DNA of 39,829 bases from the NCBI RefSeq assembly GCF_030646255.1, contig NZ_JAUSNF010000023.1, positions 1 to 39,829 on the forward strand. The letters are read 5' to 3'. The stretch comes from Candidatus Burarchaeum sp. GTDB lineage: Archaea; Micrarchaeota; Micrarchaeia; Burarchaeales; Burarchaeaceae. A program made the translations under genes and the position numbers. Shown piece by piece: positions 10,500-26,716 of this stretch; positions within the stretch are counted from its first letter, which is position 1, and each line of letters opens with the position of its first letter. Below the pieces are notes generated by a model. It was not told the DNA's origin. It made no database searches and saw nothing but the letters and a program-made list of their open reading frames with translations.

Positions 10500-10602
10500 A
10501 AAGGAGGTTGACACGCATTCCGCCCGGAGCGGAATGGTGCCCCTTTCTCGTATCCACGAGAAAGCGGGACCTCAGGGAACCTCGGTTCCCTAGGTCACCC
10601 GC
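10500..10602 (+). repeat. Orphan hairpin-chain element: three consecutive stem-loops
   Basis: CATTCCGC-CCGGA-GCGGAATG (10516-10536); CTTTCTCGT-ATCC-ACGAGAAAG (10543-10564); GCGGG-ACCT-AGGGAACC-TC-GGTTCCCT-AGGT-CCCGC (10564-10602). Leading 24 nt (10500-10523) match 26207-26230 at 22/24. Confidence 0.8.
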
Positions 10603-13539: not shown

Positions 13540-13652
13540 TGCGGCCGCCGGGATTTGAACCCGGGTTATAGGCTTGGAAGGCTTGCTTATCGGAACCAAG
13601 GTCCGTGAGCCTTAATTCAATTCTAAGTCCTACCAGGCTAGACTACAGCCGC
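13540..13652 (-). tRNA. tRNA-Gly (TCC) with a 40-nt intron (13583..13622) at noncanonical position 29/30
   Basis: Spliced: GCGGCTG TA GTCT AGCCTGGTA GGAC T TAG^GC CTTCCAA GCCTA TAAC CCGGG TTCAAAT CCCGG CGGCCGC A. All stems pair, 73 nt, anticodon TCC with U33. Confidence 0.93.
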
Positions 13653-13742
13653 CAAAAGAACCTACGGCAAGCATTCCGTCTCGAAAGACGGAATGGTGCG
13701 TCATTACGCCGAAGGCGTAATGACCGTTCTTTTGAGAACTCC
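13653..13742 (-). repeat. Hairpin chain in the tRNA-Gly 5' leader
   Basis: Outer stem AAAAGAAC (13654-13661, + strand) / GTTCTTTT (13726-13733) enclosing CATTCCGTCT-CGAA-AGACGGAATG (13672-13695) and GTCATTACGCC-GAA-GGCGTAATGAC (13700-13724). Confidence 0.85.
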
Positions 13743-20554: not shown

Positions 20555-20671
20555 GGGGCGTTTTACTCAAGCCCGCCTTAAAAAGCTTACCCGCCCCCTG
20601 CCCCGTCCCCCTGCCAATCGAAACCCTTTTTATACTGGGACGCACCAAGAACATATCCAAACAGGAAGTCT

Positions 20672-20694
20672 GAAGGAAACCTGCGGTTTCTTTC
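20672..20694 (+). repeat. Leader hairpin immediately upstream of tRNA-His
   Basis: GAAGGAAACC-TGC-GGTTTCTTTC (one G-U pair), ending 2 nt before G-1 of the tRNA; TTTTTATA promoter-like box near 20628. Confidence 0.75.
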
Positions 20695-20696
20695 AT

Positions 20697-20826
20697 GGCC
20701 ACGGTGGTGTAGTGGTAGCACAAGAGGCTGTGGTGGAAGGGGGCACGCTCCGCGCCCCCTTTCTAAACCCCGCGAACGCGCGGTAGCAGCAACCCCTAAG
20801 CCCGAGTTCGATCCTCGGCTGTGGCC
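20697..20826 (+). tRNA. tRNA-His (GTG) with about 58-nt intron (20734..20791) at 37/38
   Basis: G-1 + GCCACGG TG GTGT AGTGGTA GCAC A AGAGG CTGTGG^A CCCCT AAGC CCGAG TTCGATC CTCGG CTGTGGC C73. G-1:C73 is the His hallmark. One A29-C41 mismatch in the anticodon stem under this splicing model. Confidence 0.85.
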
Positions 20827-20834
20827 TCATTTCA
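20815..20834. repeat. Left copy of 20-bp direct repeat (tRNA-His 3' end)
   Basis: TCGGCTGTGGCCTCATTTCA, exact match to 20925-20944. Confidence 0.95.
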
Positions 20835-20944
20835 GCATGGAACTTCGTTCCATGTCTGATGCATTCTGCATTGCAGAATGCACATCATTCGGCCCCAGTC
20901 TCGCCAACGCTTCGGCGTTGCCGATCGGCTGTGGCCTCATTTCA
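20835..20944. mobile_element. 110-bp insert/duplication unit behind tRNA-His, consisting of hairpins and bounded by the 20-bp repeat
   Basis: Hairpins CATGGAAC-TTC-GTTCCATG (20836-20854), TGCATTCTGC-ATT-GCAGAATGCA (20860-20882), CAACGC-TTCG-GCGTTG (20905-20920); right repeat copy 20925-20944. Confidence 0.55.
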
Positions 20945-20980
20945 TTCGCTTTTTTAAGTTAAGCTCACAAAAGACGTCCC

Positions 20981-26186: not shown

Positions 26187-26194
26187 TTTTTATA
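26187..26194 (+). promoter_or_regulatory. Promoter-like TATA element for the tRNA-Trp leader
   Basis: GGTTTTTATACTAAT about 240 nt upstream of the mature tRNA 5' end; no stronger AT-rich box is apparent closer to the tRNA. Confidence 0.45.
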
Positions 26195-26206: not shown

Positions 26207-26428
26207 AAAGGAGGGTTACACGCATTCCGCGTGAGGTGGAATGGCGTGCACTTTCCCTGCGGGGAACACACATTCCTTTCGGGAATGGTGCCCCTTTCCG
26301 TCTTCGGGACGGAAAGAGCGCGTCGAGAAAGATGGACCCACGGAAACCGTAGGCAAGGAAAAAGGGAAAGTAGCAGGAAACCGAGGCCCTCTAAGAGGGA
26401 GTTCTTAAAAGAACCGCAGGTTCTTTTA
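26207..26428 (+). repeat. Hairpin chain forming the tRNA-Trp 5' leader
   Basis: Includes CATTCC-TTTCG-GGAATG (26271-26287), CTTTCCGTC-TTCGG-GACGGAAAG, CCCTC-TAA-GAGGG (26387-26399), AAAAGAACC-GCA-GGTTCTTTT (26407-26427). Confidence 0.8.
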
Positions 26429-26693
26429 GGGGTCATGGTGCAACTTGGCAGCACGGCAGTGGGCGCTTCTTTCTTTTCGAAAGAAAGAAGCCCCGGGCAA
26501 GAAAGAAAACGGGGTAATAGCCGCGCCTAAGCTCCAGAGGATTTCTTTTGTGAAAAGGAATCTACGGATTTGCCAATGTTAGTTACAGGTATTGCGACGC
26601 GGCCGCGAGGCCGCGGATGAGCGGATTTCTGGAACTGCAGATTATTCTGCGAGGAGAGACCTGTAAGTCGGGGTTCAAATCCCCGTGGCCCCA
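26429..26693 (+). tRNA. tRNA-Trp (CCA) with two introns: 26460..26530 (71 nt, position 30/31) and 26538..26658 (121 nt, position 37/38)
   Basis: Spliced 73 nt: GGGGTCA TG GTGC AACTTGGCA GCAC G GCAG^G CTCCAG^A CCTGT AAGT CGGGG TTCAAAT CCCCG TGGCCCC A. All arms pair; loop CTCCAGA gives anticodon CCA. Exon lengths 31+7+35. Confidence 0.9.
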
Positions 26694-26716
26694 CTAATAT
26701 TCACAAAGGTGTTTGG

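Follow-up and report, generated by a model that had tools for sequence, protein, structure and literature searches.

We found that, in one archaeal family, most of the tRNAs detected have the same type of hairpin at their predicted RNase P cut, and that this hairpin appears to be renewed by swaps of whole cassettes. Pre-tRNA leaders are usually regarded as unstructured, unconserved tails. Our analysis covered the window (the whole 39,829-nucleotide stretch of DNA analyzed here, which is contig 56 of a 61-contig draft genome of 1.21 Mb that is 84% complete) and three members of the family, representing three species and two genera (the window's genome, G000, and two others, G001 and G002). The named relatives are the Micrarchaeota LFW-281_7, of the same genus, and B9_G16 from Guaymas, of another genus in the same family. 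Judging from the sequences compared, we think it somewhat probable that the leader hairpin is a copy of a dispersed Micrarchaeota cassette family and that it serves as a self-contained, removable pre-tRNA leader.

The window contains three intron-bearing tRNAs, and all three have a leader hairpin at or almost at position 1. The labels that ARAGORN gave to these tRNAs (Leu, Asp, and Ala) are unreliable because their introns are non-canonical, and at its default settings the program found no tRNAs because of the introns; the Trp and Gly identities assigned to two of them in a sequence-only reading of the window are plausible. The Trp-like tRNA (Ala according to ARAGORN; 26429..26694, + strand) has orthologues in G001 and G002 with other leader stems. 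Its leader hairpin element (26394..26428, +) contains a perfect 10-bp inverted repeat, has a minimum free energy of -9.2 kcal/mol, and matches covariance model R1 (see below) at 49.7 bits. On the + strand, an AAAGG-like block (26394-26402) is followed by the 5' arm TAAAAGAACC (26406-26415), the loop GCA (26416-26418), and the 3' arm GGTTCTTTTA (26419-26428), which ends at -1. Farther upstream on this strand are a truncated older copy of the element, recognized from its sequence and the array pattern (AAAGGGAAAGTAGCAGGAAACCGAG..., 5' half only; 26361..26393), a further remnant (GGAAACCGTAGGCAAGG; about 26342-26360), and AAAGGAGGGTTAC with the three-hairpin part of this long leader (26207..26325), whose modules are as in other leaders (CATTCC.. 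GTGCCCC ..TTTCCGTC hairpins). A TATA-like TTTTTATA is just 5' of the three-hairpin part, at about 26187-26194.

The Gly-like tRNA (Leu according to ARAGORN; 13540..13652, - strand) matches Rfam RF00005 at 43.1 bits, and its leader (13653..13742, -) folds with a z score of -7.2. The 5' arm of this leader, CAAAAGAAC (13734-13726, -), and its 3' arm, GTTCTTTTG (13661-13653, -), which ends at -1, enclose an apical loop that contains a module of two more perfect hairpins (13724-13700 and 13695-13672, -). The third tRNA, a tRNA-Asp with an intron (20697..20828, +), was overlooked in the sequence-only reading and has a like architecture with another stem. Its leader hairpin (20660..20694, +; R1 match of 41.9 bits) is 2 nt 5' of the tRNA, with the arms GAAGGAAACC (20672-20681, +) and GGTTTCTTTC (20685-20694, +) on either side of the loop TGC, and a TATA-like TTTTTATA is about 30 nt 5' of the element. 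We also found a stand-alone complex element in an intergenic region (10500..10594, +), which was recognized by its fold and by a match to covariance model R2 (10559-10594, 27.9 bits) and which reads AAAGGAGGTTGACACG, a CATTCCG.. segment, GTGCCCC, a TTTCTCG.. segment, and GCGGGACCTCAGGGAACCTCGGTTCCCTAGG. At 20810-20946 of the window, the 3' end of tRNA-Asp and its trailer (TCGGCTGTGGCCTCATTTC) recur about 115 nt downstream with hairpins in between, and comparable repeats of tRNA 3' ends are found at the matching place in G001 and G002.

The sequence-only reading had described a conserved leader stem that abuts the RNase P site in the Trp-like and Gly-like precursors. Its sequences and coordinates are exact for both leaders, including the Gly-like one, which spans 13742..13653 on the minus strand with its tRNA starting at 13652, and in the Trp-like leader GG is at 26398, GTTCTTTT ends at 26427, A is at 26428, and the tRNA begins at 26429. 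The match of 17 of 19 positions between the two leader blocks was reproduced, as was the spacing of 1 nt before mature position 1. Base -1 is usually paired too (U-A, C-G, G-C, or A-U), and the stem therefore reaches the mature 5' end. There are 3 matches to AGTTCTNAAAAGAAC in the window at up to 2 mismatches, compared to 0.24 expected. The leader hairpin of the Trp-like tRNA recurs before the other two tRNAs of the window and before most tRNAs of the genome, in support of the proposed conserved stem before unrelated tRNAs.

A search for the leader upstream of other tRNAs, which had been suggested as a check, showed that it recurs. A pattern search was followed by two covariance models, one for a 3-nt loop (R1) and one for a UU loop (R2), which were built separately because a single register mixed GTA and TT loops. 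The genomes of the three family members each gave 12 to 22 copies, and those of other relatives of the order gave 0 to 3 weak matches. Of the R1 matches in the family, about two thirds end immediately 5' of a tRNA, and the majority of the remainder lie in tRNA introns. In a model-free test that accepted any strong hairpin ending within 5 nt of tRNA position 1, we found one at 48 of the 86 tRNAs of G000, G001, and G002 (56%, an upper estimate for all tRNA genes, as the 86 are detected tRNAs only and part of them were located via the element). The same test was positive for 1 of 30 tRNAs in five relatives of the order, where the stem is an unrelated one, and for 18 of 3440 dinucleotide shuffles (0.5%). 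The fraction with a hairpin is still large among the tRNAs found by the tRNA model alone, and about two thirds of the element hairpins end at exactly -1.

The element has the consensus AAAGGRRG-spacer-(9-11 bp)ACC-GYA/UU-GGU-(9-11 bp), in which a purine block and a short spacer precede a stem of 9 to 11 bp closed by ACC-GYA-GGU or ACC-UU-GGU. In a set of 22 distinct 3-nt-loop hairpins that abut a tRNA, 94.1% of cells are paired, the number of double changes is 38 compared to 13.9 ± 2.9 in shuffled sets, and the covariation score is 0.497 compared to 0.213 ± 0.027 when shuffled and 0.09 to 0.20 when slid. Changes on both sides were seen at 6 of the 10 stem pairs; the apex AACC/GGUU is nearly invariant, and A-U and G-U predominate in the bottom four pairs, against a genomic GC content of 54%. 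The mismatches include 14 G.U and 3 A.C, an excess of G.U which, though the copies are related, points to the tRNA's RNA strand. The covariation of the stems could come in part from a copying mechanism that always yields perfect hairpins. At several tRNAs the leader loop is replaced by two further hairpins, and this two-hairpin module is present or absent between orthologues (Leu and Asn). An Rfam 15 search with two leaders gave no family match with an E value of 1 or less, and the leader hairpins, as unbroken stems of 9 to 11 bp abutting position 1, do not have the form of a bulge-helix-bulge (two 3-nt bulges and a 4-bp helix, both ends).

Where the element is absent, the best TATA center of tRNA genes has a median position of -31 relative to position 1, from which it follows that these genes have leaders of only a few nucleotides. 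In genes with the element, TATA is often about 12 to 35 nt 5' of the element, i.e., the element is where position 1 sits in element-free genes, and in G001 an element occupies the spacer of a tandem tRNA pair. Given this TATA spacing and the tandem context, the element is very probably transcribed together with the tRNA, as the pre-tRNA 5' leader.

Orthologous Trp, Leu, Asp, Asn, and Tyr genes retain the hairpin at the same place and differ in their stems; the Trp stem, for example, is TAAAAGAACC in G000, GCAGGAAACC in G001, and AAAAGGAACC in G002. For one Leu gene (GCAGGGGTGGC), the promoter can be aligned across all three genomes. Its leader in G000 is a GTTCT unit with a two-hairpin module; in G001 the 5' half of this unit remains, with a new complete unit between that half and the tRNA, and G002 has a third leader version. 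We also counted contiguous base pairs strictly in 13 multi-unit leaders. The terminal, tRNA-proximal units have at least 9 contiguous bp in 11 of the 13, the other two being broken by a mismatch, while 19 of 21 inner, upstream units have only 1 to 3 bp. This pattern fits either selection that keeps the position-1 hairpin alone or the entry of new units into the loop of old ones, and the fact that complete hairpins are nearly all tRNA-touching copies points to selection for structure at that place. The tandem units of 31 to 33 nt are contiguous and are not arranged, as in CRISPR arrays, as direct repeats with unique spacers.

It had also been proposed from the window alone that the 5' arm has two possible partners, the 3' arm and an upstream GTTCT, and forms an alternative-structure RNA switch that gates RNase P or splicing. 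The upstream partner is present in the window, and the three-segment complementarity is real in GTTCT-type copies, two of which are in the window, but it is confined to this near-identical subtype and is thermodynamically negligible. In the two GTTCT versions that were folded, the alternative pairing is worth -3.2 kcal/mol compared to -9.2 and -10.4 kcal/mol for the hairpin, and its base-pair probability is about 4e-4 and 2e-5. In other copies the counterpart of the GTTCT block is GTCT, GATA, or GGTTTA, with which their own 5' arms cannot pair, and in 38 of 51 leaders the 5' arm has no upstream pairing of more than 4 bp. The leaders do not have mutually exclusive conserved pairings of comparable stability. 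We therefore rejected the switch on its distribution across copies and its energy, and consider it extremely improbable.

Copies of the element are present in tRNA introns, both sense and inverted, and between protein genes in other Micrarchaeota, and the RNase P RNA of G002 carries a full copy immediately 5' of conserved region I, at the P3 position; because copies exist outside tRNA genes, the element does not need a tRNA. In a sample of the phylum, 18 of 295 genomes gave matches, chiefly the window's family and one genus of another family. In that genus, nzgw29 has arrays of complete hairpins with differing stems and carries the element also at tRNAs, with a 2-nt gap, and G157 has many copies, none of them at its sampled tRNAs. 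The hairpin is not essential, because about one third of the tRNAs in G000, G001, and G002 and all sampled tRNAs of G157 lack it. In G167, copies come after stop codons, and pyrimidine-rich sequence follows them. Direct repeats of 20 to 47 bp are associated with four copies that lie at gene ends, the right repeat beginning 0 to 3 nt after the element, and random positions in these four loci rarely give repeats of that length. This suggests that the element can move as DNA, but no enzyme could be linked to such movement.

Several of these observations would also be expected of a selfish or neutral repeat that inserts widely and survives where processing deletes it (tRNA leaders and introns) or where a hairpin is harmless (P3 of RNase P RNA and intergenic regions), with adjacency to position 1 following from very short ancestral leaders and the perfect stems from the copying mechanism. 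We regard this explanation as possible but not as the probable one. The copies in introns in both orientations, in P3, between genes, and at gene ends agree with it, as do the direct repeats at four sites, the tandem arrays, and the genome of G157, with its copies and none at tRNAs; the TATA at -31 likewise suggests ancestral leaders of few nucleotides. However, a repeat of this kind would not be expected to end at exactly -1 in two thirds of cases, to remain complete in arrays nearly always where it abuts the tRNA, or to be retained at the same tRNAs in three species and two genera despite changed stems. The view that it is a repeat of DNA only, with no relevance to RNA, is weakened by the G.U excess and by the preservation of the tRNA-abutting copy.

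A role in transcription, with the hairpin and its pyrimidine-rich arm acting as a terminator, a pause signal, or part of a promoter, would suit the G167 copies, with a stop codon before them and pyrimidine-rich sequence after, but the tRNA would be silenced by a terminator immediately 5' of position 1, and the element comes after the TATA position and is found within tandem tRNA transcripts, so that we judge such a role highly improbable. We also think it very unlikely that the leader is released as a small RNA for which the tRNA serves as a 3' processing signal. The purine block is conserved outside the stem, and its AAAGGAGG form is Shine-Dalgarno-like and could bind the 16S 3' end, but the block varies (AAAGGGAG, AAAGGGAAG, and ACAGGAAG), and we found neither an open reading frame nor a target for it.

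RNase P RNA (RF00373) is present at full length in G000, G001, and G002, with scores of 72.4, 72.2, and 52.1 bits that are all below the curated cutoff of 84, and loss of RNase P was rejected on this basis as a cause of the odd leaders. An enlarged P3 region is seen in this RNA in all three family members (L132 253-289; L133 and L134, near conserved region I). In archaeal RNase P, an RNA base packs on the first acceptor pair and Pop5 probably guides positions -1 to -3 (PMC6565675), and the bacterial RNase P protein holds a single-stranded leader at -8 to -3 (PMC11143913). A hairpin ending at -1 is therefore an unusual substrate, and a hairpin tight against +1 should hinder rather than help the archaeal enzyme.

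Beyond the observed distribution, structure, and stem turnover of the hairpin, its proposed service as a removable leader would involve the following steps. A cassette lying between the putative transcription start and position 1, as predicted for more than half of the detected tRNA genes of the family, would for that reason be transcribed as the whole pre-tRNA 5' leader. This leader would fold by itself into a hairpin whose base ends at -1, where it may stack coaxially; it would act as an insulator, so that the 5' extension does not pair with a long precursor that is rich in hairpins and bears an intron, and might shield the transcript end. The A-U-rich bottom pairs would open on binding, so that -1 to -3 could enter RNase P, which would then remove the leader in one cut, and whole cassettes would be exchanged as a genetic element between tRNA genes and species. 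That the hairpin retains its form and position while its sequence is replaced between genes and species suggests that a mobile RNA module is now part of how the tRNAs of this family are made, and the steps by which a dispersed repeat was taken into tRNA biogenesis can be traced here. The family offers about fifty matched natural substrates for asking how archaeal RNase P handles a helix at -1, and since a clash at the hairpin site is predicted from the archaeal RNase P structures in the literature, this question is directly testable.

Like the REP sequences and other dispersed palindromes of bacteria and archaea, the element is a small hairpin in many extragenic copies, sometimes in arrays and with free orientation at the DNA level, and it has the 20- to 40-nt imperfect palindrome in many extragenic copies of REP/RAYT systems. 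Unlike REPs, it clusters at position 1 of tRNAs and within their introns, it combines a variable stem with a conserved AAAGGRRG foot and ACC/GGU apex, so that its foot is not of the GTAG type (GTAG occurs in the loop only), and it has no consistent Y1 transposase. This transposase (PF01797), the cognate enzyme of REP/RAYT systems, was found in G000 (one copy) and G004 and in neither G001 nor G002. The element also shares a sub-terminal hairpin and a short conserved foot with the ends of IS200/IS605 elements and their non-autonomous derivatives, but the hairpins at the ends of the only IS200-like copy in G000 are unrelated to it, and G001 and G002 have no such copy; an IS200/RAYT origin was rejected on these grounds. 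The G000 copy (G000:C54:10271-10615) has an intact Y1 transposase of 184 aa and is the sole one found in the family. In a survey of archaeal REPs there is no tRNA case, apart from one unrelated use of the word, and no Micrarchaeota case (PMC12306157), and we found no such element described in the open-access literature on tRNA leader hairpins, archaeal REPs, leaderless tRNAs, and Micrarchaeota tRNA introns. We place the element as a REP-like repeat at a new location, where its role is probably new as well.

The element is also like transposed archaeal tRNA introns, modular pieces that are gained and exchanged among the tRNA genes of a lineage and for which integration of mobile elements was proposed in Caldiarchaeum (PMC3293823). 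Unlike these introns, it is in the 5' leader, is without a bulge-helix-bulge, and would need RNase P and not the splicing endonuclease. In bacteria, leader structure affects RNase P processing, and there is no conserved leader sequence (PMC11143913); in contrast to such ordinary structured leaders, a shared hairpin family here begins at -1. A broader idea, which we hold to be rather doubtful, is that these hairpins are a new archaeal mobile class that inserts at RNA-processing boundaries (the RNase P site of pre-tRNAs, tRNA introns, and the loops of its own hairpins), with a perfect stem regenerated whenever it moves, possibly through self-primed copying that starts at the CC-GYA-GG turn, and that the host has adopted it as its standard removable pre-tRNA leader.

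Three leader elements in reverse orientation within tRNA introns (G000:C7:10214-10252, G001:C7:5852-5890, and G001:C59:20290-20321) match sense leaders elsewhere, and pairing in trans between such intron elements and leaders is conceivable. In nzgw29 (L179 and L180), GGAGGGTTTTGAATG-like and GGATACAAAACC motifs lie close to start codons alongside the hairpin arrays that separate protein genes, and may represent a second family of repeats. In the Aenigmatarchaeota genome NC_groundwater_689 (L174 and L178), two contigs break at a repeat that has the hairpin at its edge, as though this were the terminus of a longer mobile element in another phylum. Many tRNA introns of the family, including that at 26462-26520 of the window and those in L016, L020, L026, and L060, have a common modular hairpin (GGCCCTTTTCTTT..AAAGAAAAGCGCC..GCGGAAAAG). 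A second type of tRNA-intron hairpin (AAGGGGGCACG..CGCCCCCTT..AACCCC) was also seen, and both types are found in several different tRNAs at non-canonical positions.
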